From contig JAISFR010000039.1 in the NCBI GenBank assembly GCA_031263565.1, positions 1 through 53,934 of the forward strand: a DNA stretch of 53,934 bases. The letters run 5' to 3'. Shown here piece after piece: positions 939-34,842 of the stretch. The translations under genes and the position numbers were made by a program. The stretch is from Candidatus Adiutrix sp. (GTDB lineage Bacteria > Desulfobacterota > Desulfarculia > Adiutricales > Adiutricaceae). The notes beneath the pieces are model-generated. The model worked only from the letters and a program-made list of their open reading frames with translations. It was not told where the DNA came from and did no database searches. How positions within the stretch are numbered: the first letter of the stretch is position 1; each line of letters begins with the position of its first letter.

Positions 939-1023
939 TTTTTTTACCCAGGGGCTGATCGGCACCGATGAGCGGCCGGCCGTTTTCATCGCCCCGGATT
1001 GGTTGTTTGAAAGGAGAACCGCC

Positions 1024-2484
1024 ATGTCCAAATTCAAGTACAAGTATCAGATGTACAAACATTTACAGGCCAATATCCCCAACATCTACGCCGACCTGCG
1101 CAAGGCCGCCGAAGGCATCGGCATCCCGGCGGAGAAAAAGGGCGCCCTGGGCCTGACCGGGGCCATCTCCGGCTGCCCGGCCCCCTTACGCAAAGACATC
1201 ATGGAAGCCAGCGAAAAGGGCGCCCTCCAGGTCATCCCTCTGGCCACCCTGGTCGAGCAGATCCGGGAACTGGTCAAAGACGTTTACGGCGACGGCTATG
1301 ACGCCGCCCCCGTGTCCACCTGCGAAGCCGGGCTCTGGCTGGCCTTTGACAGCCTGTTCTCGCCCCCGGCTATGGGCCGCGGCGACAACTACCGGGCCCG
1401 CTACATCGCCCCCTACGAAAAGCACATGCACCACCAGGCCGGCTACGGCCGGCCCTTCCCGGCCAAATACAAAGACTTCATCGCCGACCGGGGCTCCACC
1501 GCCGGCGAACTGGGCTTCTACGGCAAGCGCCAGAACAACCTCGACACCGTGATCGTGCCTCTGCCCGGGGCCAGGTATGACGTCCACGGCATCAAGAGTC
1601 ACCCGGTGCCCCTCCTGACCGGGGTTGATCCGGACGCCGCCTGCGCGGAGTTGAAGAAAGTCGCCGAACGTCACGCCCCCCTGCTGACCGGCTTCACCTC
1701 CCTGGGCTACGACAGCCCCGGCTACGGTTATTCAGTCAAGGACAGCGACGGTGTGCCCAAGCTGCAGAAGAACATCGCCAAAATCGCCCAGCAGTACAAC
1801 GTGCCCTACGTGGTGGACAACGCCTGGGGCCTGCCCTTCGTCGGTTTCGACCTGCCCGGATCCGGGGCCGACGCCGTGGTCTACAGCATGGACAAAGCCA
1901 CCGGAGCGGCCACCAGCGGCCTGGTCATCGGCAAGGAAGAGGTCATGGTTCCCCTCCGCCGGGCCATGGGCCTTCACGGCGACCGCTGGGGCACCGGCGC
2001 TTCCTACGGCAAGGCCGCTTACGTCTGCTTCGACCCGGGCAAGGAAGCCCTGCTGACCCAGATTCAGGCCTTGAAGGTGCTGCGCGACCAGCCCGAAATC
2101 CTGACCGGACCGGTCGACGACCTGCATGAAATCGTCAAGGACGAATTCTCCAAGCTGCCCAAGAGCCTCCAGGAGGGCCTCCTGATTTCCAAGTCCTACA
2201 ATTCCACGGCCGTGGAAGTCAACTACGAAGGGACCTGGAAAGACGGCCGGATGGGCATTCCCATATTCTCCATCGAGGACATGTATTCCGGCACCAACCT
2301 GTTCCAGAGCGGCCTGGCCCAGATGGGGGTCATCCCCACGGTGGCCTATGACGGCAACATCTACATGTCCACCGGCCTGGCCACCACGGACGAAAAGGGG
2401 ACGCTCCTGGAAAAGGAAAGCCGCTGGTGCGTCAGGTCGCTGGTGAAGCTGATCGAAATCGTCTGCGAATACGCCGGCCTTTGA
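1024..2484 (+). CDS. Fold-type-I PLP-dependent enzyme of unknown substrate
   Basis: The product is 486 residues. It has the two landmarks of fold-type-I PLP enzymes: Asp265 in YVVDNAWG, expected to bind the pyridine nitrogen, and Lys291 in SMDKATGAATSG, the likely Schiff-base lysine. The N-terminal part (ALGLTGAISGCPAP and TCEAGLWLAF) provides a Gly-rich phosphate-side loop. It looks most like the aminotransferase-V/Cys-Met-lyase-like superfamily, but I cannot place it in a named family; decarboxylase, lyase, racemase and aminotransferase activities are all open. The ATG at 1024 has AAAGGAGA upstream and is preferred over the in-frame TTG at 1003. It follows the RidA gene and precedes a cobalamin enzyme, so a shared amino acid substrate is inferred. 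Confidence 0.8.
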   Translation: MSKFKYKYQMYKHLQANIPNIYADLRKAAEGIGIPAEKKGALGLTGAISGCPAPLRKDIMEASEKGALQVIPLATLVEQIRELVKDVYGDGYDAAPVSTCEAGLWLAFDSLFSPPAMGRGDNYRARYIAPYEKHMHHQAGYGRPFPAKYKDFIADRGSTAGELGFYGKRQNNLDTVIVPLPGARYDVHGIKSHPVPLLTGVDPDAACAELKKVAERHAPLLTGFTSLGYDSPGYGYSVKDSDGVPKLQKNIAKIAQQYNVPYVVDNAWGLPFVGFDLPGSGADAVVYSMDKATGAATSGLVIGKEEVMVPLRRAMGLHGDRWGTGASYGKAAYVCFDPGKEALLTQIQALKVLRDQPEILTGPVDDLHEIVKDEFSKLPKSLQEGLLISKSYNSTAVEVNYEGTWKDGRMGIPIFSIEDMYSGTNLFQSGLAQMGVIPTVAYDGNIYMSTGLATTDEKGTLLEKESRWCVRSLVKLIEIVCEYAGL

Positions 2485-2506
2485 GGTCTACGGGCTTGAC
2501 TCCACC

Positions 2507-2535
2507 GCCCCGGCCTTGGCTGGCCAGGCCGGGGC
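2507..2535 (+). other. GC-rich hairpin between the PLP gene and the 82-residue gene
   Basis: Nine-base perfect arms (GCCCCGGCC at 2507-2515 and GGCCGGGGC at 2527-2535) enclose TTGGCTGGCCA, which can add three more pairs. There is no T-run afterwards, so it is not a standard intrinsic terminator. It could protect the upstream messenger or partly separate expression of the two halves of the operon. Confidence 0.5.
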
Positions 2536-2594
2536 CGGACCTCACAGCCCTGAAGGATTTCCCGCCCGGCTTTATTTCATTATAGGGGAGGTGG

Positions 2595-2843
2595 ATGATG
2601 ACCGTGCCGGACGTGTTCGCCTACGTGCTCGACGCCCTGGACATAGAGACCCTCCTGGTCTGCACCAGCGAGGAGGAGGGCAAGCGAATCGCCCTGGAGC
2701 TGGCCAAGAAACTGGGCTTCAAGGACGTGGACATTGTTTTCATCAGGTTTCAGGGCTCCGGCGCGAGAGTCCGCCTCCGGGCGTACCTCAACCGGCCCGG
2801 CGACCAGTACGCCTGGCTCGATCTGGAAGACGCCGGGAGGTAA
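2595..2843 (+). CDS. 82-residue protein preceding the cobalamin enzyme; candidate small subunit
   Basis: No family is recognised. The start is supported by GGGGAGG about three to six bases before two consecutive ATG codons (2595 and 2598); the second may be used. The product begins with a helix (VPDVFAYVLDALDIETLLV), continues with a charged helix (EEEGKRIALELAKKLGF) and ends in strands (VDIVFIRF, ARVRLRAYL), suggesting a compact alpha/beta fold. Its stop is only seven bases before the next start. Small companion subunits are known for some B12 aminomutases (OraS of ornithine 4,5-aminomutase, about 120 residues), but I see no sequence match to OraS; the comparison rests on position only. Confidence 0.75.
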   Translation: MMTVPDVFAYVLDALDIETLLVCTSEEEGKRIALELAKKLGFKDVDIVFIRFQGSGARVRLRAYLNRPGDQYAWLDLEDAGR

Positions 2844-2850
2844 AGAACCG

Positions 2851-4671
2851 ATGCCGCCAAAAAAAGTCTTGCTGGCCCCGTTGGACCCGGTGCATGACAT
2901 CGCCCTGAAAATTATCAATCGCGGCCTGAGGGACGCCGGCTATGAAACGGTCATCCTGCCGCCGGACCTGCCGCCGGAGGAAATTATCCAGGCCATTATC
3001 GACGAAGGGGCCGAGACGGTTTTGATCAGCCGGACCTTAGGCTACGGCGTGGCCGAAGTCCTGGCCAGGTTCATTGACCTGACGGACGCGGCCGGCATTC
3101 GGGACCGGGTCAGGGTCGCGGTGGGCGGCATGGCCGTCCACCCGGAACTGGCCCAGGAACTGGGCTTTGACGCCGGCTTCGGCCCCGGCTCCACCGTTGA
3201 GGAAACCATCGCTTTCGTCGACGGCCGGGAATACGTCAAAAAATTCAACTTCGAACGCAAGCGTGAAGACGACCTGAGCGCCGGCTACAGCTATGAGGTC
3301 CGGCACAACCGCATCCGCGAACTGTTAGGCCGGATCACACCCCTGATTCTGGGCTGGGCCGAGGGCCTGACTTCGCCCGGAGTTCAAAGAGCGGCCGTGC
3401 GCGAAGAACTGTGGGACGTCAAGAAGTGGCGCGATCACGAGGAGCCCGAAGAATTTTTCGCCGAATACCCCAAATACTGCGAAGAGTCGGTGCGCAACTT
3501 TTATGAAAAGGGCCTCCTGCACCCCAAGACCCGCCTTTTCAGCCAAAAGGACGTGGAAAAACTCAAGGCCTATGTCCGGCGGTCCCGCCGGGACCTGCAA
3601 ACGCCCCATCTCCAGCACAAGCTGATTAAGCCGGTCATTTTCAACCAATACGGCACCGGCTGCCCCTATATGGACATCGCCCACATCAAGGCCAGCGAGG
3701 CCTACGGGGCCGACGGCGTGATTCACTTCGACCCCTCCTGGGGGGCCAGGACCGAGGGGCTTTACGACGGCTTCCTGACCCACCAGGAAGACGGCACGGT
3801 CATCACCCCGGCCAACCTCAACCGCATTTACCGGGCCCTGGAGTACGGCACCCTGTGGCAGGTGCGGGCCCACCGCGGGCTGAACAGCCCGGAAACCGTG
3901 GTCCTGGCCGGTAAAATCGGCGCCAACCTGACCAAGATCAACATCTGCTACGGTTCCCTGGGCGCGGGCACCGACCCGGCCCGCCTGACCGTGGACGCCA
4001 TTGCCGCCATCAAATACGCCGTCCAGTACCAGATGCCCTTTGACGTGGTCACCAATGAGGAACTCTGCGGCGTTCCGGCCCACAAGGCCCTGGCCGGCAT
4101 GCTCATCGTGGCCCACCTGGGGGCGGCCCTGGGGGGGCGGCCCATACTTCAGCCGCTGTTCTGTTTTTCGCCGGAAGTCATGATCGGCGGCCAGATGGAC
4201 GACAACTACGTTGATTTCAACGTGGCCAAAATTATGGCCCTGCGGGCCATCATGGACGCCCCCATCTGGCCCGGGGCCCCCATCGGCTTCCTGACCCAGA
4301 CCGAAGACCGGGTCCAGTCCAGCGCCTCCACCGCCTTCCACGCCAGCCTGGCGGCCATGCTGGAAGTGGACGCCATCTCCATCGCCTCCGCCGACGAAGC
4401 CTATTCCGGCGGGCCCATCACCGTGGCCTCGCGGATCGACACCCTGCGGGCGGTCAGCGAAGGCTTCCGCTTCTTTGGACATTCCCGGATGCAGGTCAGC
4501 GCCCAAGCCACAGAATGGGCTGAAAAAATGATCGAAGGCCTTGAAAGGGTCCTCCAAGCGGTCGCGGCCCGGGGCGACTTCGTTCAGGCTTTATATGACG
4601 GTCTCCTCGGCAGCCGGGAAGAGGGGGCCTATCCGGGCCGGGCGGGAGTCAATACGGTCGTCAAAAAATGA
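2851..4671 (+). CDS. Cobalamin-dependent mutase-like protein, fused B12 domain plus TIM barrel (glutamate-mutase-like)
   Basis: 606 residues. Residues 1-125 resemble the sigma/B12-binding subunit of glutamate mutase: His15 in DPVHDIA, a SRTLGYG loop at 60-66, VGG at 91-93 and GFDAGFGPGSTVEETI at 106-120. Residues about 190-560 resemble the epsilon-type TIM barrel, with WQVRAHRG near 336, ANLTKINICYGSLGAGTD near 355 and a Gly/Ala-rich VAHLGAALGG stretch. The combined length is close to GlmS plus GlmE (about 620), so a natural sigma-epsilon fusion is the best model. The motif Asp of DxHxxG is displaced (Asp12 is three, not two, residues before His15) and its Gly is Ala18. Substrate is unknown; carbon-skeleton mutase or aminomutase are both possible. 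Its stop overlaps the next start (ATGA). The start at 2851 follows seven bases after the 82-residue gene. Confidence 0.8.
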   Translation: MPPKKVLLAPLDPVHDIALKIINRGLRDAGYETVILPPDLPPEEIIQAIIDEGAETVLISRTLGYGVAEVLARFIDLTDAAGIRDRVRVAVGGMAVHPELAQELGFDAGFGPGSTVEETIAFVDGREYVKKFNFERKREDDLSAGYSYEVRHNRIRELLGRITPLILGWAEGLTSPGVQRAAVREELWDVKKWRDHEEPEEFFAEYPKYCEESVRNFYEKGLLHPKTRLFSQKDVEKLKAYVRRSRRDLQTPHLQHKLIKPVIFNQYGTGCPYMDIAHIKASEAYGADGVIHFDPSWGARTEGLYDGFLTHQEDGTVITPANLNRIYRALEYGTLWQVRAHRGLNSPETVVLAGKIGANLTKINICYGSLGAGTDPARLTVDAIAAIKYAVQYQMPFDVVTNEELCGVPAHKALAGMLIVAHLGAALGGRPILQPLFCFSPEVMIGGQMDDNYVDFNVAKIMALRAIMDAPIWPGAPIGFLTQTEDRVQSSASTAFHASLAAMLEVDAISIASADEAYSGGPITVASRIDTLRAVSEGFRFFGHSRMQVSAQATEWAEKMIEGLERVLQAVAARGDFVQALYDGLLGSREEGAYPGRAGVNTVVKK

Positions 4672-5729
4672 CCAACTTCATTATCGGGATTGCCGGCACG
4701 GCCAAGAATACCGGTAAAACCACGGCTCTGGCCGCTCTACTCAGCGAAATCAGGCCAGAGCCCGGCCCGACGACGGCCCTGACCAGCATCGGCTACGACG
4801 GCGAGCATTTCGACAACCTCACCGGTCTGCCCAAACCACGCATCTCAGTCGTCCAGGGCGAGATTCTGGCCGTAGCCGAACGCTGTCTTCATTCCGGCGA
4901 CGCGGCCCTGGAAGTGCTTCAAAAAACGGACCTCCCCAGCCCTTTGGGCAAAATCGTCATCGGCCGGGTGACCCGGCCGGGCCAAATTGTTCTGGCCGGC
5001 CCCAACAAGCGCCGCGACCTGGCCGCCATCATCGACCGATTCACCGAACTGGGCGCAGGGCTGACCATTGTCGACGGCGCCCTGAGCCGGATAGCCCCCC
5101 TGGCGGCCGCCCAGGCCCTTTTGCTTTGCACCGGCGCGGCCCGCCACCGCGATCTGAATCTTTTAGCCGCCGAAACCAAACTGGTGGTTGAAATTTTGAA
5201 AACGCCGGCTTTGAAAGAACGGGGACTGGCGGCCCGCTTGACTTCCGTTCTCAACCGGGCCGGCTTCGATCAGTTTATGGCCGCTGTCCGCAAGTCCGAA
5301 ACCATTCACCTCGACGGCATCTTCAGTGAATTGTACTACTCCGAATTTCTGGAACAAGCCGGGGATCTGGCCGGCCGGCGCCTGATTTTCGCCGACTCTG
5401 TCAAACTGCTGCTGTCCGGCGACGCGGGCGCCACCCGCCGCCTGATCGACGGCCTGAAAGCCAAGGGGATGCGGGTCGGGGTGGGCGCAGGCCCGAATCT
5501 GGCGGCGGTTGCGGTGAACCCCTATTACCCCAAATACCGTTACGATCTGAAAGAATACGAAGCCGCTTACGTGGACCAGGATGAACTGCTGGCCCGCCTG
5601 TCCGCCGGCCTGACCGTCCCGGTCTTCGATGTGGTCCGGCAGGGGGGGCGAGGCCTGTATGAGGCGCTTCTGGGTGAACATAATATTACTAAAGGGCCGG
5701 ACTGGTTTTCAAGATGGGGTAGTTTGTGA
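4668..5729 (+). CDS. P-loop NTPase, candidate reactivating factor of the cobalamin enzyme
   Basis: 353 residues with a clear Walker A, GTAKNTGKTT, at residues 10-19, and a Walker-B-like strand LTIVDGA near residue 132. No NKxD GTPase motif is evident, so an ATPase is more likely than a G3E/MeaB-type GTPase. The gene overlaps the mutase stop by four bases (ATGA), implying translational coupling. B12 radical enzymes commonly need an ATP- or GTP-driven reactivase (MutL/GlmL, MeaB, KamB/KamC, diol dehydratase reactivase); this position and the KNTGKT P-loop remind me of the KamB ATPase of lysine 5,6-aminomutase reactivase, but I cannot verify the homology. It is not the ASKHA-type MutL. The C-terminal third (NPYYPKYRYDLKEYEAAYVD) has no recognised motif. 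Confidence 0.72.
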   Translation: MTNFIIGIAGTAKNTGKTTALAALLSEIRPEPGPTTALTSIGYDGEHFDNLTGLPKPRISVVQGEILAVAERCLHSGDAALEVLQKTDLPSPLGKIVIGRVTRPGQIVLAGPNKRRDLAAIIDRFTELGAGLTIVDGALSRIAPLAAAQALLLCTGAARHRDLNLLAAETKLVVEILKTPALKERGLAARLTSVLNRAGFDQFMAAVRKSETIHLDGIFSELYYSEFLEQAGDLAGRRLIFADSVKLLLSGDAGATRRLIDGLKAKGMRVGVGAGPNLAAVAVNPYYPKYRYDLKEYEAAYVDQDELLARLSAGLTVPVFDVVRQGGRGLYEALLGEHNITKGPDWFSRWGSL

Positions 5730-5839
5730 TATATTTATGCCTGAACTTCAATGGCCAGAGGCACAAAAAAAACGGAAACATCTTTCGCCGGTGGCGGTTC
5801 AGAGACGGTCATGCGATGGAATAATCCAGGAGTTGAGCA

Positions 5840-6142
5840 ATGGAAAATAAATATCAAGTTTTGAATTATGGTACTGATCCAGGTGAAATCAGATACACAA
5901 AATGTCTGGAGGCCAAATTGCTCACCTTGGGACTAGGCTGCCACACCCGAGCGGAATTCAACAATCTTTTCGTCAACAGCGACTTTCAGCGTCAGAAAGA
6001 GCTTACTAGGATGGTCCCGCTTAAGCCGGCTTCAGCGGTTTCCAAAGTCCGCATACTTGGCAAAGAAGAGTTTCTTCGCCAAAAATTTGATGATTCGTAT
6101 GTTGCGGAGGTTCTTGGTTCTGATTGGATTGACCGGGTGTAA
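5840..6142 (+). CDS. Hypothetical protein, 100 residues
   Basis: Not recognised. AGGAG lies about seven bases before the ATG. The product is soluble, with two cysteines (in YTKCLEAK and GLGCHTR) and a basic central region. Base composition and codon use are visibly more AT-rich than in the operon before it and in larB after it. The gene is followed eight bases later by another unrecognised gene on the same strand, and the two look like a small acquired module. No toxin or DNA-binding motif can be named. Confidence 0.55.
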   Translation: MENKYQVLNYGTDPGEIRYTKCLEAKLLTLGLGCHTRAEFNNLFVNSDFQRQKELTRMVPLKPASAVSKVRILGKEEFLRQKFDDSYVAEVLGSDWIDRV

Positions 6143-6150
6143 GTAATCCC

Positions 6151-6858
6151 ATGCTTGAAACCGCCCCACGCCATAGTCTCGCTTTAGCAGAGTTGTTGGA
6201 CCGTATAGAGATTGACGTTCAACTACAAGACGCCTTGGGCAACAGCGAAATCGTCCGGCAAATAATAGATAATGCCGCCGGTATTTGTCAAAACCTGGCC
6301 GATATACGGCGTAACGGTAACCTTGAAAACATGGTCCGTGCCGAAGCAGCCTTACTTAGCCAGCATGTTGACTTAATGCGGGGGCGAACCCCAATCTGGC
6401 AGGAAGAATCTAACAGCCTGAATAAAGCCCAAAGAGAGATGGCCGAAGGCTGGCGCTGCTTGGATAACCTGATGCACGATATCGGCAAATACAATCAGGC
6501 TCAAGAGATTTACAATGTTAAAGCCAGAGATGGCTATCCCCAGGATGCGTTTAGAACTTATTGTGGGGGCCAGCACACTCGGCTCAGTAACTCGCTAAAA
6601 TCACCCTACAGCGACGAATTCAGAATGATCTTAAAGGCCAGGGATGACAATGTCCTGGCTATGCAGAAAAAATACATCGAACACCAGCGCGAAAAGCTCC
6701 CTGAGCCGGCCCAAACGGTAGGAACCGAGCTTGCAAAGTATCAGATCACAAGAGTCGGCGCAATAGCGGAATTAAAAAGACAACGCGAAATGGGGATCGA
6801 CCCAAAGTCCCAAGACCAGGCCAAAAGGAAAAAAAGTGATCGCGGGATAGATTTATGA
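6151..6858 (+). CDS. Hypothetical, mostly helical protein, 235 residues
   Basis: Not recognised. The sequence is rich in charged and amide residues and is predicted by eye to be almost wholly alpha-helical, with a strongly basic tail (KRKKSDRG). Cysteines occur at QNLADIRR-adjacent and TYCGGQH positions without a metal-site pattern. It starts eight bases after the preceding gene; there is no strong ribosome-binding site, so translation may depend on that gene. Lower GC than the surroundings points to horizontal gain. A structural, partner or immunity role for its neighbour is speculation. Confidence 0.55.
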   Translation: MLETAPRHSLALAELLDRIEIDVQLQDALGNSEIVRQIIDNAAGICQNLADIRRNGNLENMVRAEAALLSQHVDLMRGRTPIWQEESNSLNKAQREMAEGWRCLDNLMHDIGKYNQAQEIYNVKARDGYPQDAFRTYCGGQHTRLSNSLKSPYSDEFRMILKARDDNVLAMQKKYIEHQREKLPEPAQTVGTELAKYQITRVGAIAELKRQREMGIDPKSQDQAKRKKSDRGIDL

Positions 6859-7079
6859 GCCAGACCCAATGAAGCCTATTAGTTGGATGGTTTGGTTTAC
6901 ATAATATTACTTATCGGACAAATTTTAACCCCCAGAAACAGGCCCCCGCGGCTGATCCCGTTATTTAGATGACCAGTCAAGCCCTTAAACTTTTATCCCG
7001 GCTTGTAAGCCCCCGGGGCTTGTGGTAATATTGCCCTCCGAGTTGTCGACCCTTCTTGAAACTCAGGAGAAGCAATATA

Positions 7080-7754
7080 ATGCCGCCGGAAATCGGAATA
7101 TTTTTCGACCACGCCCGCCCGGACCGGATTGGTCTGCCGGAGGCCGTCTTTTGCCAGGGCAAACATATTTCCGTGCTGGAAAGACTGCTGCGGGAATTCA
7201 ATTCCTCCCGGCCGGTCCTCTTTACCAGGCTGGAGCCGGATCTGTTCGCCCAACTGCCGCCCGAACTGCAAAACAGCGTTAATTACCACCCGGTCTCCCG
7301 CACCGCCTTCAGCCGGACCCTGCCGCTCCGGCCGGGCCTCAAAGTGGCCGTGGTTTCGGCCGGTTCGGCCGACGCCTTCGTCACCTGGGAGGCGGCCCGG
7401 ACCTTGGAATACCTGGGCTTTGAGCACAGCGTCTATGAAGACCACGGCGTGGCCGGTCTCTGGCGTCTGGCCTCCCGTCTGGAGGAGATTGACAGCCATC
7501 AGGTGGTCATTGTGGTGGCCGGCCTGGACGCCGCCCTGGCCTCGGTCCTGGGCGGCCTGACCCCTAAGCCGGTCCTGGCCGTGCCCACTTCCGTGGGTTA
7601 CGGTCAGGCCCAGGGCGGTCTGACCGCCCTGAACAGTATGCTGGTCAGTTGTGCTCCGGGCCTGTCGGTCTTCAATATCGACAACGGCTACGGCGCGGCC
7701 TGCGCGGCGGCCCGGGTCTTGAACCTGATATCGAGCCTCGGCCCCCGACCTTAG
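7080..7754 (+). CDS. larB: LarB-type pyridinium-3,5-biscarboxylate synthase (nickel-pincer cofactor biosynthesis)
   Basis: 224 residues, a little shorter than usual (about 245). The C-terminal half is diagnostic: VVIVVAGLDAALASVLGGL, AVPTSVGYGQAQGGLTALNSML and CAPGLSVFNIDNGYGAA, the AIR-carboxylase-like core of LarB. LarB carboxylates and hydrolyses nicotinic acid adenine dinucleotide, the first step toward the nickel-pincer cofactor of lactate racemase and related racemases. The ATG at 7080 follows AGGAGA; an in-frame TTG at 7056 overlaps that site and is rejected. A weak promoter-like TTGTAA(17)TAATAT sits at 7003-7031. larC and larE are not nearby. The 3' end overlaps the convergent rlmE stop by four bases. 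Confidence 0.88.
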   Translation: MPPEIGIFFDHARPDRIGLPEAVFCQGKHISVLERLLREFNSSRPVLFTRLEPDLFAQLPPELQNSVNYHPVSRTAFSRTLPLRPGLKVAVVSAGSADAFVTWEAARTLEYLGFEHSVYEDHGVAGLWRLASRLEEIDSHQVVIVVAGLDAALASVLGGLTPKPVLAVPTSVGYGQAQGGLTALNSMLVSCAPGLSVFNIDNGYGAACAAARVLNLISSLGPRP

Positions 7755-29737: not shown

Positions 29738-30577
29738 TTAATAGGCCAGGTCCGACAAGTCACTGAGTTCGGCGTCGGGATTGAAAAGGTAGATACGCAG
29801 TTCCGGCCCCCGGCTGAGATTTTGATAAAGGCGCAGAAAGCCGGTGCGGGCCAGTTCCAAAAGGGCCAGAAAAGTCAGCGTCAATTCGGCCTGGCTGCGG
29901 CCGGCGGCGCAGAGATCCTCAAAGAGGCCGCTTTGGCGCTCTTTCAGACAGGTCTGGATTTCCACTATGCGCTGGGCGATGGTTTTATTTTCCACCACAA
30001 AATTGATGGTCTTCTTTTCGGCCTTTTTCTCGGCCAGACGCCGAAAGGCCTCGACCAGGTCAAAGAGCGAGGCCGGGGCCAGTTCGTCCGGCCCGCCCGC
30101 CCCGGCCTCTTCCAGGGGTCGCCCGCCCCGGACAAAGACATCGCTGCCCAAAAGCCGCCGGCGGCCGAGGGCCTCGGCCGCCCCCCGATAATCGCCCAGG
30201 CCCAGGCGCTCCAGCAGCGGGTCGATGATGGCCGACTTCAGTTCGTCGGCCGGATCGTTCTCCAGGTCGTCGCCGCCTTCCCTGGGAAGAAGCAGGCGGG
30301 ATTTTATCTGGGTGAGGGTCGCGGCCATGACCAGGAAGTCGGCCGCCAGTTCCACATTGAGGGCTTCCATCAAATCCAGATAGTCCAGATATTGGGCGGT
30401 AATCAGCGCCACCGGGATGTCGTCCAGATCGACTTCATTTTTTTTGATGAGATGCAAAAGAAGATCCAGCGGACCTTCATATATCTGAAGCTTGACCAGC
30501 AGCTCCGGCCTGATTTTCCTATCGGGGTTCAATGGCTTGAAATGTTTCGATTCCAAAGCGCCGTTTAACGCAATCAT
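29738..30577 (-). CDS. scpA: Segregation and condensation protein A
   Basis: 279 residues. N-terminal LLVKLQIYEGPLDLLLHLIKKNEVDLDDIPVALITAQYLDYL is the ScpA signature that binds the SMC neck; MAATLTQIKSRLLLPRE follows, and the C-terminal winged-helix region binds the SMC cap. It is the kleisin of the Smc-ScpAB condensin. The start overlaps the stop of a Phd-type antitoxin gene (ATGA), so translation appears coupled. scpB is not adjacent, which is unusual. No odd residue in the N-terminal helix. Confidence 0.93.
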   Translation of the reverse strand: MIALNGALESKHFKPLNPDRKIRPELLVKLQIYEGPLDLLLHLIKKNEVDLDDIPVALITAQYLDYLDLMEALNVELAADFLVMAATLTQIKSRLLLPREGGDDLENDPADELKSAIIDPLLERLGLGDYRGAAEALGRRRLLGSDVFVRGGRPLEEAGAGGPDELAPASLFDLVEAFRRLAEKKAEKKTINFVVENKTIAQRIVEIQTCLKERQSGLFEDLCAAGRSQAELTLTFLALLELARTGFLRLYQNLSRGPELRIYLFNPDAELSDLSDLAY

Positions 30578-30816
30578 CTTGCCAATTCTTCAAAAGTTCT
30601 GATGTGTTTCGCCAAAAGGCGCGAAGCCGCCGCCTCGACGCTCTCATTGTCAGCGGCCGCATCTTGACGGAACAGACCGTAATCCAGAAGGACATAGCGC
30701 GGCGCGTTGTTTTTCAGAATGATGGCCGTTCCCTTTTCGTCCACAAGGCGGGCCACCCTCGAAAAGTTCTGATTGGCTTCCGAAATAGAAACAAGGTTTT
30801 CAACGTTGATATACAT
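30574..30816 (-). CDS. Phd/YefM-type antitoxin-like protein, no toxin adjacent
   Basis: 80 residues. The N terminus YINVENLVSISEANQNFSRVARLVDEKGTAIILKNNAPRYVLLDY matches the Phd/YefM DNA-binding fold, with the usual ILKNNxPxxVLL strand. In phd-doc or yefM-yoeB operons a toxin follows immediately; here the next gene is scpA, overlapped by four bases. An orphan antitoxin retained as an autoregulator of scpA, or the remnant of a toxin-antitoxin pair, are both possible. The C-terminal helix (SVEAAASRLLAKHIRTFEEL) is where the toxin would bind. Confidence 0.85.
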   Translation of the reverse strand: MYINVENLVSISEANQNFSRVARLVDEKGTAIILKNNAPRYVLLDYGLFRQDAAADNESVEAAASRLLAKHIRTFEELAR

Positions 30817-31062: not shown

Positions 31063-31091
31063 TTGACAAAACGCTCCATAAACTATAATAT
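31063..31091 (+). promoter_or_regulatory. Promoter of the methyltransferase/AsnB-like operon
   Basis: TTGACA at 31063-31068, then TATAATAT at 31084-31091. TATAAT is at a 15-base spacing and TAATAT at 17; the latter gives normal spacing. It is 36-60 bases before the first start codon at 31127. Confidence 0.65.
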
Positions 31092-31126: not shown

Positions 31127-31789
31127 ATGAAGCCCGACTGTCATGACTATTTCATCAAAGACGGCCGTCACCTCGGTCTTTACGAAGAGATGTATCTAAT
31201 CTGCCCCGACCCCTGGCGCATCGAGGAACTGGGGCCGCGCCTGGATATGCGGGCCGCCCTTCTGCTGCTGAACGGCCGGGAAAAGTCGGTCCGCCGTTTT
31301 CTGGATATAGGCGCCGGCCTGGGCCTCTTCACCAGCCTTCTGACCCAATGTTTGTGGCGGTCAAACCCGGAGGCCCGGGGCCTGGTCACCGACATCGCCC
31401 CCAGCGCCGTGGCCCGGGCCCAACAGCGCCTGGCCGATCCCCGCCTGGAATTCGCGGCCCTGGACATCCGCACCCTGGCCGACAAGCCCCGGTTCCCGCC
31501 CGAAAACTTCGATCTGCTGGTCCTGGCCCAGGTGCTTTGGGGCCTTCTGGAAGATCTGCCCCGCACCCTGGCCGCCCTGGCCGATCTGCTGCCGGCCGGC
31601 GGGCTGATGCTCATCTCCCAGCATTTTTTCCCGCCGGGGCGGCAGGCCTACGGCGCGGAAACCGTGGCCGGGCCCGAAGAGCTGATTTCCTTTTTGAAGC
31701 CGGCCGGGCTGGAAATACTGGAAACCATTGAATGCAACCGGGCCGTCAACCACCATTGGGCGGCCCTGGCCCATAAAAAAGCCTTATGA
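31127..31789 (+). CDS. Class I SAM-dependent methyltransferase
   Basis: 220 residues. Motif I is [16 protein letters not shown] (about 63-78), then [25 protein letters not shown] and [37 protein letters not shown], the standard Rossmann order for small-molecule methyltransferases. No family-specific pocket motif is recognised. First gene of a four-gene operon; its stop overlaps the next start (ATGA). The ATG at 31127 has only a weak GGCGAG before it, so an upstream TTG is not excluded, but it would lie on the promoter. Confidence 0.85.
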
Positions 31790-32730
31790 CGAACCCGCGG
31801 TCCACCTCCCCGGCCCAGGCCCCCGGGGCCCGCTGCCGCTGGTGCCTGGTCAGCGAACTGCGCCCCGCCCTAAATCTGGGCGGCAACAACGATCTGGGCC
31901 GACCCTTCGGCCTCAGCCGCTGCCAGGCCTGCGGCGCCTGGCAGGTCAGCCCTCCGCTGTCCCCGGATATTTTGCGCGACTATTTCACGGCCCCGGCCCG
32001 CTGGCTTCCGGCCCGGGATCCCGGGGGCCGGCTGACGGACCCCAGGGCGCGGCTGGAATCGCGGCGGGCGGAATACAAAAAATACGCGGCCGCCATGGCG
32101 CCCCACCTGGAAGCCGGCGACCGGGTGCTGGACGTGGGGGCCGGCGGCGGCCTGATGCTCTCTCTTCTGCCCGGCCACCTGCGGCGCGTAGCTTTGGAAC
32201 CCAACCCCGAGGCCGCTGACGCCGCCGCTGAACGGGGCCTGGACGTGCGCCGGGAATGGGCCGAAGACGTTGATTTTCCGCCGGGGCATTTAAGCGCCCT
32301 GATTTTCAACCAGAGCCTGGACCATCTGCCCGACCCCGGCTTTTTCCTGGCCCGGGCCGTGATCTGGCTCAGGCACGGCGGACTGATGCTGATCAGCGGC
32401 CTGATCAATCCCGACTGCCTGTGCGCCAGGGTCTACGGGCCCCGCTTCCGCCTCTGGCACCCCCTCCACCAGGTCTACCCCACCCCGGAAGCCACGGTCA
32501 GGGTGCTGGAAGCCTGGGGTTTAGAGATCCTGCACTGGTGGCAGCCCTATTTTGGAACCCCTTACGGCGGCTGGCTGAAGATGCTGACGGCTTTTCCCGA
32601 AATTATGGCCCAGTCGCTGAACCCGGGCCGGGACCGGCCGTCGCCGCCCTGGCCGGGCAACACTTTCAGCCTTCTGGCCCGGAGGACCTTGCAGAGCATT
32701 CCCCTGGAAAAAATGGCCCTGGCCTATTAA
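31786..32730 (+). CDS. SAM methyltransferase with N-terminal zinc-binding cysteines
   Basis: 314 residues. The N terminus has CRWC (residues about 13-16) and CQAC (about 46-49), followed by the Pro-rich join to the methyltransferase domain. This arrangement is that of sugar C-methyltransferase-type proteins with a small zinc-binding domain. Motif I is [17 protein letters not shown] (about 111-127), then [17 protein letters not shown] and a [31 protein letters not shown] block. The late methyltransferase features are intact. Substrate unknown. Overlaps the preceding gene by four bases; the next gene follows after 13 bases. In context it probably works with the AsnB-like enzyme. Confidence 0.82.
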
Positions 32731-32743
32731 AAAAGGAAAACTT

Positions 32744-34411
32744 ATGGAACACTACCGGGGCCTGGCGCTTTTCCGCGAAGCGCCGTCAGCCGACCTGATC
32801 TTTTTTCGCGGCCGCCTCTACGACCTGGCCCCGGGCCGGGACCAGGACCGGGAGCTGGCCCTTCTGGCCGCCCGGCCCGAGCTTCTGAACGAGCGGGAAG
32901 CCGACCTGGCCCTGGTGGCCTACAATGCCGGCCAGAAAAGCTGGCGCCTGATGCGGGATTTCGGGCCGACCCCGCTTTATTACGCCCCCCGTCCAGGGGG
33001 TTTCGCCTGGAGCTTCACTTATGCGGGCCTGCTTGACCTTCTGGACGAGATCCGGCCCGACGAGGCCACGCTGTTCGACTATACGGCCACCCACTACCGC
33101 TACCTCTTCCGCGACCCGGCCCGGACTTTTCATCAGGGGGTTTATCAGGTGCCGGCCGGCGCCTATGTGGATATCAGCGAGCGGGGCCTCAGTTCCCAAA
33201 GCTGGCTGAAGCTGGATCACGACCCGGAGCTTTTCGGCCTGGGCCCGGAAGAAGCCAGCGGGCGCCTGATGGAAATTCTGCGGCCCAGCGTGCGCCTGAG
33301 GGCCAGAGCCGCCCGGCGGCCGGCCTTCACCGTTTCCTCGGGCCTGGACAGCTCGACCGTGGCCGCCCTGGCCGCCGGGGAACTGGGCGGCCTGGACGTT
33401 TTTTCCGTCGGTTATCAGGGGGCCGGGGCCGAGGAATACGACGAGACGGACGGCGTGGCCGAACTGGTCCGGGGGCGGGACTGGCGCTGGACCCATCTGA
33501 GGCTGGAAAAACCCGACTTGGTGGCCGAAACCCGAAAATACATCGGCCTGAGCCGCTCGCCGGTGGTCACGGTCACCTGGCTGGCCTACTATTTGATGGG
33601 CCAGCAGCTTTCCGGCTTCAGCGAGATGTTCAACGGCCTGGGCGGGGACGAGAGCCTGGCCGGCGAATTCGGCCACTTTTTCTATTTTTTCGCCGACTTG
33701 AAAAAGGCCGGCGACCTGGACCGGCTGGCCGCGGAGGTCGAAGCCTGGAGCCGGCTGCACGATCACCCGGTTTTCAGGAAGAACCCGGAAACGCTGAAAA
33801 CATTCTGGGACCGGAATATTGATTTCCAGAGCGGGGAAATCAGGGTGGATCAAGTCCTCTACCAGGCCAACCGGCACTTTTTCAACCCCGACTGGTTCGC
33901 CGCCCACAGCCGGGAGACGCCGCCCATGCCCCGGCCCTACCCCAACTTCCTCTCCAACCGGCTCTGGCAGGAAATCAGCCACGAAACCACCCCCCCCACC
34001 CTCTGGGGGCTGCAACTGGCCAACCAGAACCTGGGGCTCAGGGGAGTCTCGCCCTTCCTCAGCCCCCGGCTCTTCAGGCTCTGCCTTTCGCTCCCCGGCG
34101 CGGTCAAATACGACCGGGGCCTGAGCAAGGCCCTGCTCCGCCGGGGCCTTAAGGGCCTTTTGCCGGAAAGCCTGCGCTTAAACCCGAGGAAGGTGGGCTT
34201 CAACGCCCCCATCCATCAATGGTTCAAAGATCCCAAAGTCGGCGGTCCGACCCGGCAGCTTCTGAGCGAGGGGCCGCTGGTCAAAAACGGCTGGCTGAGA
34301 GCCGGGGCGGCCGAAGAAATTTTCCGGGAACACGAATCTGGACAGGCCAACCACATGATGTTACTATGGGCCCTGTTGAACGCGTCTTTGTTTTTGGAGG
34401 CCCGAGCATGA
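32744..34411 (+). CDS. Asparagine-synthetase-like amidotransferase lacking the catalytic N-terminal Cys
   Basis: 555 residues. The C-terminal ATP-pyrophosphatase domain is clear: SSGLDSSTVAAL (about 197-208), VFSVGYQGAGAEEYDE, NGLGGDESLAG, and a Arg/Lys-rich stretch (KALLRRGLKGLLPESLRLNPRKVGF) near 470-490. The N-terminal region resembles the glutaminase domain in outline (GPTPLYYAPRPGGFAWSF) but the protein begins with Glu-His, not Cys, after Met, so glutamine hydrolysis is not expected. Such enzymes adenylate a carboxylate and form an amide with ammonia or an internal amine (as in lasso-peptide cyclases and beta-lactam synthetases). In the operon it follows two methyltransferases and overlaps the MOSC gene. 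AAAGGAAAA precedes the ATG. Confidence 0.85.
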   Translation: MEHYRGLALFREAPSADLIFFRGRLYDLAPGRDQDRELALLAARPELLNEREADLALVAYNAGQKSWRLMRDFGPTPLYYAPRPGGFAWSFTYAGLLDLLDEIRPDEATLFDYTATHYRYLFRDPARTFHQGVYQVPAGAYVDISERGLSSQSWLKLDHDPELFGLGPEEASGRLMEILRPSVRLRARAARRPAFTVSSGLDSSTVAALAAGELGGLDVFSVGYQGAGAEEYDETDGVAELVRGRDWRWTHLRLEKPDLVAETRKYIGLSRSPVVTVTWLAYYLMGQQLSGFSEMFNGLGGDESLAGEFGHFFYFFADLKKAGDLDRLAAEVEAWSRLHDHPVFRKNPETLKTFWDRNIDFQSGEIRVDQVLYQANRHFFNPDWFAAHSRETPPMPRPYPNFLSNRLWQEISHETTPPTLWGLQLANQNLGLRGVSPFLSPRLFRLCLSLPGAVKYDRGLSKALLRRGLKGLLPESLRLNPRKVGFNAPIHQWFKDPKVGGPTRQLLSEGPLVKNGWLRAGAAEEIFREHESGQANHMMLLWALLNASLFLEARA

Positions 34412-34842
34412 AAGTACTGGCTGTTTCCATCAGCGAGCGTCAGGGGACCAAAAAAGAGAACCAGGAGCAGATCGTGGTGCTGAAAGACCGGGGAGTGGCC
34501 AACGACGCCCACCTGGGCCTGGACCCCAAACGCCAGGTCAGCCTTCTGGCCCAGGAAAGCGTCGAAATCATGAAGAGACAGGGGCTGGACCTGCGGCCCG
34601 GAGATTTTGCCGAAAATATCACCACCGAGGGCCTGGAACTGCACACCCTGCCTCTGGGCGCCCGCTTGAAAATCGGGCCTGAAGCCGTGCTGGAGGTCTC
34701 CCAGATCGGCAAGACCTGCCACCACGGCTGCGCCATCAGGCAGAGCGCGGGTTCCTGCATCATGCCCAGCCACGGCATCTTCGGCCGGGTGCGGACCCCG
34801 GGGCGCATCCGGCCGGGCGATGAAATAGTGGTGGAGAAGTAG
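34408..34842 (+). CDS. MOSC-domain protein
   Basis: 144 residues, a single MOSC domain. Seen: GVANDAHLGLDPKRQVSLLAQES, RPGDFAENITTEGLEL, and the Cys-rich loop GKTCHHGCAIRQSAGSC with Cys104, Cys108 and Cys117; the last in the IMPSHGIFGRV context is the usual conserved MOSC cysteine. MOSC proteins carry sulfur or bind molybdopterin in Mo-cofactor enzymes. GGAGG lies eight bases upstream and the start overlaps the AsnB-like stop by four bases. Whether it belongs functionally with the three genes before it or just follows them is open. Convergent with the permease gene 11 bases later. Confidence 0.9.
   Translation: MKVLAVSISERQGTKKENQEQIVVLKDRGVANDAHLGLDPKRQVSLLAQESVEIMKRQGLDLRPGDFAENITTEGLELHTLPLGARLKIGPEAVLEVSQIGKTCHHGCAIRQSAGSCIMPSHGIFGRVRTPGRIRPGDEIVVEK

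Follow-up and report, generated by a model that had tools for sequence, protein, structure and literature searches.

A methyltransferase–ligase operon of Candidatus Adiutrix, probably the second half of a five-gene nucleotide-sugar pathway in the Adiutricaceae

Introduction

What could two methyltransferases and an asparagine-synthetase-type ligase, encoded by adjoining genes behind a single promoter-like site, be making together? The question is raised by a locus of Candidatus Adiutrix sp. (GCA_031263565.1, contig JAISFR010000039.1). The window, i.e. the whole stretch of 53,934 nucleotides that was analysed, is contig C21 of a 2.97-Mb assembly with 145 contigs. Its genus belongs to the class Desulfarculia, the order Ca. 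Adiutricales and the family Ca. Adiutricaceae, and the named records matched by other members of the genus are those of Candidatus Adiutrix, Deltaproteobacteria bacterium Smac51 (CP026657) and Ca. Adiutrix intracellularis Adiu1. A first-pass annotation, made from the letters alone, had grouped the two methyltransferases (MT1 and MT2), the ligase (ASN) and a MOSC-domain protein into one operon and likened it to a minimal biosynthetic or envelope-modifying unit. Our data suggest that the operon is probably the latter half of a nucleotide-sugar pathway of five genes, through which an unusual amino sugar, C-methylated and carrying an amide, would be made for an exported glycan. The other two genes code for an SDR and a DegT protein. 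The five genes are kept in nearly all of the Adiutricaceae, a family of termite-gut bacteria.

Results

Gene layout of the window operon

The operon comprises the following features:

31063..31091, + strand: promoter-like site, TTGACA / 17 nt / TAATAT, consensus match only
31127..31789, + strand: MT1, class I S-adenosylmethionine-dependent methyltransferase, 220 amino acids, distantly NodS-like
31786..32730, + strand: MT2, methyltransferase with N-terminal CxxC...CxxC, 314 amino acids
32744..34411, + strand: ASN, asparagine-synthetase-type ATP-pyrophosphatase ligase, 555 amino acids, glutaminase half truncated and without nucleophile
34408..34842, + strand: MOSC, MOSC-domain protein, translationally coupled, PF03473

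The four genes are as tightly packed as first described: MT1 and MT2 as well as ASN and MOSC overlap by ATGA, and MT2 and ASN are separated by 13 nt. The promoter-like site upstream of MT1 scores 10/12; three such sites occur in the region compared to 0.7 expected in shuffled sequences, a pattern match only, and an exact TATAAT at 15-nt spacing is present as well. By Pfam, MT1 and MT2 are methyltransferase domains, ASN belongs to PF00733 and MOSC to PF03473. None of the four proteins reached an NCBIfam cut-off.

Conservation of a five-gene set

The genes are contiguous in the order SDR - DegT - MT1 - MT2 - ASN in 18 of the 30 Adiutricaceae genomes outside the window's genus (G007, G008, G010-G013, G016-G018, G020, G022-G024, G029, G030, G032, G033, G036; a contig end interrupts the run within ASN or SDR in G020 and G036). 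The other 12 genomes have the set cut by contig ends or split (G015, G021 and others) or are without it (G026). Counted over all 37 genomes of the family, MT2 is present in 35, MT1, SDR and DegT are each present in 33, ASN in 32 and all five genes in 28, with G020, G025 and G036 scored on partial matches at contig ends. Several of the absences in the nine genomes without the full five likewise fall at contig ends. The ASN orthologues of the 32 genomes are without stops (two partial, three with the terminal TAA inside the match frame). Outside the family, 23 further members of the class showed a partial set in G038 (scored on an MT1 fragment), G040 and G058 only; SDR matches in G045, G048, G051, G053 and G059 (family f5; 34-41% identity, 152-223 bits) were excluded as non-orthologous. 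A search for MT1 across 63 genomes of the class gave at least 18 genomes at E 1e-30, all in families f1, f3 or f6, the count being a lower bound because family genomes with MT1 matched in two pieces fall short of this value. The scan of the named genome collection yielded 36 loci, 33 of them, from the Adiutricaceae and two order-level relatives, at 36-71% identity and three at 24-27% (Oligoflexia, Phycisphaeraceae, Kiloniellaceae). Since the gene order is conserved across the family, the co-location of the genes is not due to chance. The locus was rightly placed among biosynthetic or envelope-modifying units in kind, as sugar-nucleotide enzymes travel with the trio, but it is not minimal: SDR and DegT also belong to it. 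Most of the family have these two genes immediately before MT1, whereas the window's genome has them on a different contig.

The set is broken up in the window's genus. In the window's genome, which carries the trio on the contig studied here, SDR and DegT are neighbours on a separate contig (G000:C132:23613-25870). Strain Smac51 (G003, 3 contigs) has MT1-MT2 at 2.31 Mb, SDR-DegT at 2.57 Mb and ASN at 2.79 Mb, i.e. three loci that are 0.2-0.3 Mb apart, and all five genes are kept. Retention of the five genes while their linkage is broken is most simply explained if they form one pathway.

The ligase has lost its glutamine site

ASN matches PF00733 at 136.5 bits (cut-off 21), indicating that the ATP-pyrophosphatase synthase domain is present, while 92.2 bits against the glutamine-hydrolysing asparagine synthase model TIGR01536 are under the cut-off of 267.1. 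The protein starts with MEHYRG, and its alignments to the asparagine synthase model and to human ASNS start only at residues 113 and 117 of these, respectively. The absence of the glutaminase cysteine, which had been noticed before, is therefore part of a larger loss, as the glutamine-binding first part of the glutaminase half is gone as well. S198, G200, D202, S203, G300, G301, D302 and K462, which comprise the ATP loop, the GGD motif and Lys462, are kept in 30 of 30 aligned relatives. The AlphaFold model of ASN (30 sequences) has a predicted local distance difference test (pLDDT) value of 87.8. With structural rows within Z 1 of one another treated as ties, this model is closest to TsnB9 (Z 27.7, root-mean-square deviation (rmsd) 3.1, 459 residues aligned), followed by beta-lactam synthetase (Z 22.6, rmsd 3.1, 396 aligned), asparagine synthetase (Z 21.8-22.3, rmsd 3.2-3.4, 397-399 aligned) and carbapenam synthetase (Z 21.2, rmsd 3.5, 415 aligned). 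Two relatives at class level (loci L058 and L059) possess a longer version of ASN, which begins with MSG or MSP, and each of the two clusters holds a second asparagine synthetase, of the MCG type. The nucleophile is thus lacking from both longer versions as well as from the truncated form of the family. As the glutaminase nucleophile is missing, the amine is presumably supplied by the substrate and not by glutamine.

In these two loci, the asparagine synthetases are arranged in tandem (L058 241-2145 and 3763-5886, L059 5033-7162 and 8807-10720) with a methyltransferase and an aldo/keto reductase between them.

MT2 resembles sugar C-methyltransferases

The N terminus of MT2 had been likened to the zinc-binding one of sugar C-methyltransferases. 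The resemblance holds; zinc binding itself is putative. The four cysteines (CxxC...CxxC) are kept in 30 of 30 aligned sequences, the first cysteine being seen in 29, since one sequence begins at a contig edge. In a structural comparison of the AlphaFold model (pLDDT 90.4), the top 13 rows were all NDP-sugar (nucleoside diphosphate sugar) C-methyltransferases. TcaB9 (4e33) gave Z 22.2 at an rmsd of 2.8 over 236 aligned residues, compared to Z 18.5, rmsd 3.3 and 211 residues for the best row outside this group, and Foldseek likewise ranked MtmC and KijD1 first. The matched part extends over the Cys4 domain and the methyltransferase core, which are the first two domains of NDP-sugar C-methyltransferases. 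In the sequence profile of MT2, TcaB9 was one among many methyltransferases matched. The sugar C-methyltransferases of the top 13 rows act on 4-keto sugars. MT1 matches Methyltransf_12 of Pfam (44.7 bits), and its best solved relative is NodS (3ofj, E 5.6e-9); membership of NodS itself is not indicated, the score against NF041650 being 45.6 bits with a cut-off of 300.

SDR and DegT

The best solved relative of SDR, aligned over nearly its full length, is 6vo6 (E 1.5e-49), which we take to be Cj1427. The activity of Cj1427 is that of a C4-dehydrogenase acting on GDP-heptose (PMC10680097). For DegT, the best solved relatives are sugar aminotransferases of the ArnB type (E 5.5e-56); its scores are under the equivalog cut-offs, the best NCBIfam model being PseC (314.9 bits with a cut-off of 423.5), and ArnB reaching 267.2 bits with a cut-off of 631.

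A third methyltransferase gene follows SDR-DegT in two genomes of the genus (L083 10363-11028, L084 6574-7245), and relatives of it sit between the ASN genes in L058-L060.

Decay of the set in an endosymbiont

Candidatus Adiutrix intracellularis (G001) is an endosymbiont of Trichonympha (PMC7608387). Its ASN gene was matched only in pieces, with 17 stops in the longest, all that is left of MT1 is a short N-terminal piece running into MT2, and orthologues of SDR and DegT were not found in the genome. Since the decayed site is still flanked by the window's downstream neighbours (ABC permease, NYN, SmpB), the same locus is decaying in place. MT2 of this bacterium has four changes at columns that are invariant in 28 other sequences (one divergent sequence was left out), including Asp179-His180 to Asn-Tyr, where His180 may be the counterpart of TcaB9 His181. 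In addition, flhA is broken (G001:C51:25472-26262, with seven TAG and two TAA inside the longer piece) and no flagellin was found in this genome, which indicates that the endosymbiont has lost its flagellum. An arn-type operon is apparently intact in G001 (L086 (G001:C74) 1011-7693, open frames), encoding DegT, a glycosyltransferase 2, a formyl-transferase/epimerase fusion, a deacetylase and a PMT-type transferase.

MOSC and a neighbouring frame

At 171.6 bits (cut-off 457), MOSC aligns with the C-terminal portion of a MoaC/MOSC fusion model. The operon with MOSC, as first annotated, exists in the window; of the six genus loci, four have the gene after ASN, and it was absent from this place in every other locus where it was looked for. 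For this reason it is probably a passenger, and it was rejected as a functional member of the pathway.

Upstream of the operon, a small Phd/YefM-type antitoxin-like frame (window 30574-30816, - strand) overlaps the start of scpA, as judged by eye; no toxin was recognised adjoining it.

Discussion

A possible pathway

We infer the chemical steps, their order, the substrate and the destination from the likenesses described above. SDR would oxidise C4 of an NDP-sugar, resulting in a 4-keto sugar, to which MT2 would add a methyl group at the carbon adjacent to the ketone. DegT might then convert the ketone to a 4-amino group, and MT1 might methylate a nitrogen or an oxygen. ASN would activate a carboxylate with ATP and join it in an amide to an amine without glutamine-derived ammonia, this amine most likely being the sugar's own 4-amine. 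The product may finally be exported on a glycan, perhaps on flagellin. Amide-forming enzymes with the asparagine synthetase fold and a lost glutaminase are familiar from antibiotic and lasso-peptide chemistry. If ASN is indeed fixed in an amino-sugar pathway, this glutaminase-less chemistry extends to surface glycans. Moreover, the family offers a natural experiment, in which the five genes are scattered yet kept within one chromosome, while in a member housed within a protist they are decaying.

Several observations weigh against this pathway. All four proteins other than ASN, i.e. MT1, MT2, SDR and DegT, are below every equivalog cut-off, so that no substrate can be named for any of them. 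MT2 does not have the C-terminal third domain of the TcaB9 type, as the match stops at chain residue 267-269 of 394-419. ASN carries Leu299 in place of the Glu in the SGEGSDE motif of asparagine synthetase, and its amine partner is a guess. Neither a sugar-nucleotide synthase nor a glycosyltransferase is a constant member of the set. Genome G002 (81% complete) keeps MT1-MT2-ASN without SDR and DegT, and the MT2 frame of Ca. A. intracellularis is still open.

Possible destination of the sugar and other explanations

The same chemistry could serve different destinations. That the sugar ends up in an O-antigen, a capsule or a lipid-linked polysaccharide, carried by lipopolysaccharide or an undecaprenyl-linked glycan, is a real possibility, though one we would put below an even chance. 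Of the family loci fetched, 18 have UppP (under its cut-offs) and 10 have RfaE2 on the downstream side, and the distant clusters L058-L060, L125 and L126 contain genes for a second DegT, an aldo/keto reductase, a second asparagine synthetase and radical SAM proteins. Such a make-up is familiar from polysaccharide loci. On the other hand, the set has no glycosyltransferase, flippase or polymerase as a constant neighbour, and Ca. A. intracellularis keeps its apparently intact arn-type operon while the set decays, so that the decay does not amount to a general loss of envelope sugars. Flagellin, as a special case of the five-gene sugar pathway that has its parallel in the modified viosamine on the flagellin of Pseudomonas syringae, is a more tentative destination. 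In the window's genome, SDR-DegT is divergent from motA-motB-motB-fliL-fliM...fliR at a distance of 310 bp; in G006, a flagellin gene (L039 5805-8435, Flagellin_N and Flagellin_C) and the MT1-MT2-ASN-MOSC operon are divergently oriented, about 500 bp apart; and in G005, a flagellin gene lies about 5 kb and a Bac_transf sugar transferase gene about 3.4 kb before SDR. Two of the 37 family genomes are without flagellin (G001 and G002) and both are without SDR and DegT, compared to one of the 35 with flagellin that lacks both genes (Fisher p 0.0045, a value that ignores kinship). The shattered flhA of G001 accompanies the decay of the set, and the island of P. syringae follows a similar logic with VioA, VioM and VioB (PMC3927599). 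However, among the six genus genomes that have the set, only three show flagellar adjacency, and on the cluster contigs of all other family genomes no flagellin was among the matches listed. G026 (83% complete) lacks the whole set yet has five flagellins, flagellin without the cluster is also seen in family f2 and in many f5 genomes, and FlhA of G002 is intact, so that its missing flagellin may be an assembly gap. No flagellin-acting glycosyltransferase occurs in the five-gene set, a genome-wide search for one not having been made. The adjacency, set against these counter-examples, hints at flagellin glycosylation. It is unlikely, if conceivable, that the whole chain of events took place in which a C-methylated NDP-sugar destined for Adiutricaceae flagellins is acylated (or lactamised) at its 4-amino group by the glutamine-free asparagine-synthetase-type ligase, and pathway and flagellum were lost together when Ca. 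A. intracellularis moved into its flagellate host.

Two explanations do without a sugar. A soluble small molecule or peptide, with ASN acting as a macrolactam, beta-lactam or lasso-type cyclase, is very improbable: the fold and the absent nucleophile are as in beta-lactam synthetase and there is a weak match to the lasso cyclase model NF033535, but 90 bits are far under its cut-off of 525, and the fixed partners of ASN are nucleotide-sugar enzymes. The nine MT2-ASN gaps inspected showed no shared peptide or small frame (a leader peptidase was not sought), and a lasso or other ribosomally synthesized and post-translationally modified peptide system was rejected. That unrelated genes share a promoter by chance is hardly credible. 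MOSC resembles such a chance passenger, but the order of the other genes is conserved over about 35-70% protein identity, and the genes were retained after their dispersal in Smac51. The five-gene nucleotide-sugar pathway is the reading that we prefer.

Apart from the question of destination, flagellin N-terminal domains were seen in open frames of about 1,650-1,720 amino acids, several times the usual size (G007:C159, G026:C125, G013:C95, G017:C83, G011:C170, G018:C157, G023:C98, G012:C178, G024:C447).

Comparison with known systems

The enzyme types are each known; their combination with a glutamine-independent ligase is absent from the open-access papers searched, in line with the first-pass remark that no such operon came to mind. 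Among these papers, none on this gene set or on flagellin glycosylation with an asparagine synthase was found, nor one on the Adiutricaceae, Adiutrix flagellin, Smac51 or TcaB9 His181 that bears on the set. No known O-antigen system containing the trio was found. The flagellin viosamine of P. syringae is a 4-amino sugar that is N-acylated and methylated. Its genomic island (vioA, vioM, vioB, vioT, vioR, vioS, acp) combines a 4-aminotransferase, a methyltransferase and a 4-amide enzyme (PMC3927599), as is the case here. There, however, the acyl group comes from acyl-carrier-protein chemistry, with VioT as a dedicated transferase, whereas the set of the Adiutricaceae has an asparagine-synthetase-type ligase, a C-methyltransferase-like protein, a C4-dehydrogenase-like SDR and no transferase. 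The capsular heptose pathway of Campylobacter jejuni is related through SDR, whose best solved relative, 6vo6, is taken to be its C4-dehydrogenase Cj1427. In C. jejuni, an epimerase and a reductase come next (PMC10680097), while in the Adiutricaceae it is an aminotransferase. MT2 shares the Cys4 N terminus and the core with TcaB9, KijD1 and MtmC (Z 20.0-22.2, rmsd 2.7-3.1, 227-240 residues), from which it is separated by the absence of the third domain (chain residues 8-269 of 394-419 are matched) and by an identity of 15-20%. Finally, ASN has the fold, the ATP-pyrophosphatase loop and the lysine position in common with TsnB9 and the beta-lactam and carbapenam synthetases, which are class B relatives of asparagine synthetase. 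What sets it apart is that the first part of the glutaminase half is absent and that the position of the Glu in the SGEGSDE motif of asparagine synthetase is taken by Leu299.

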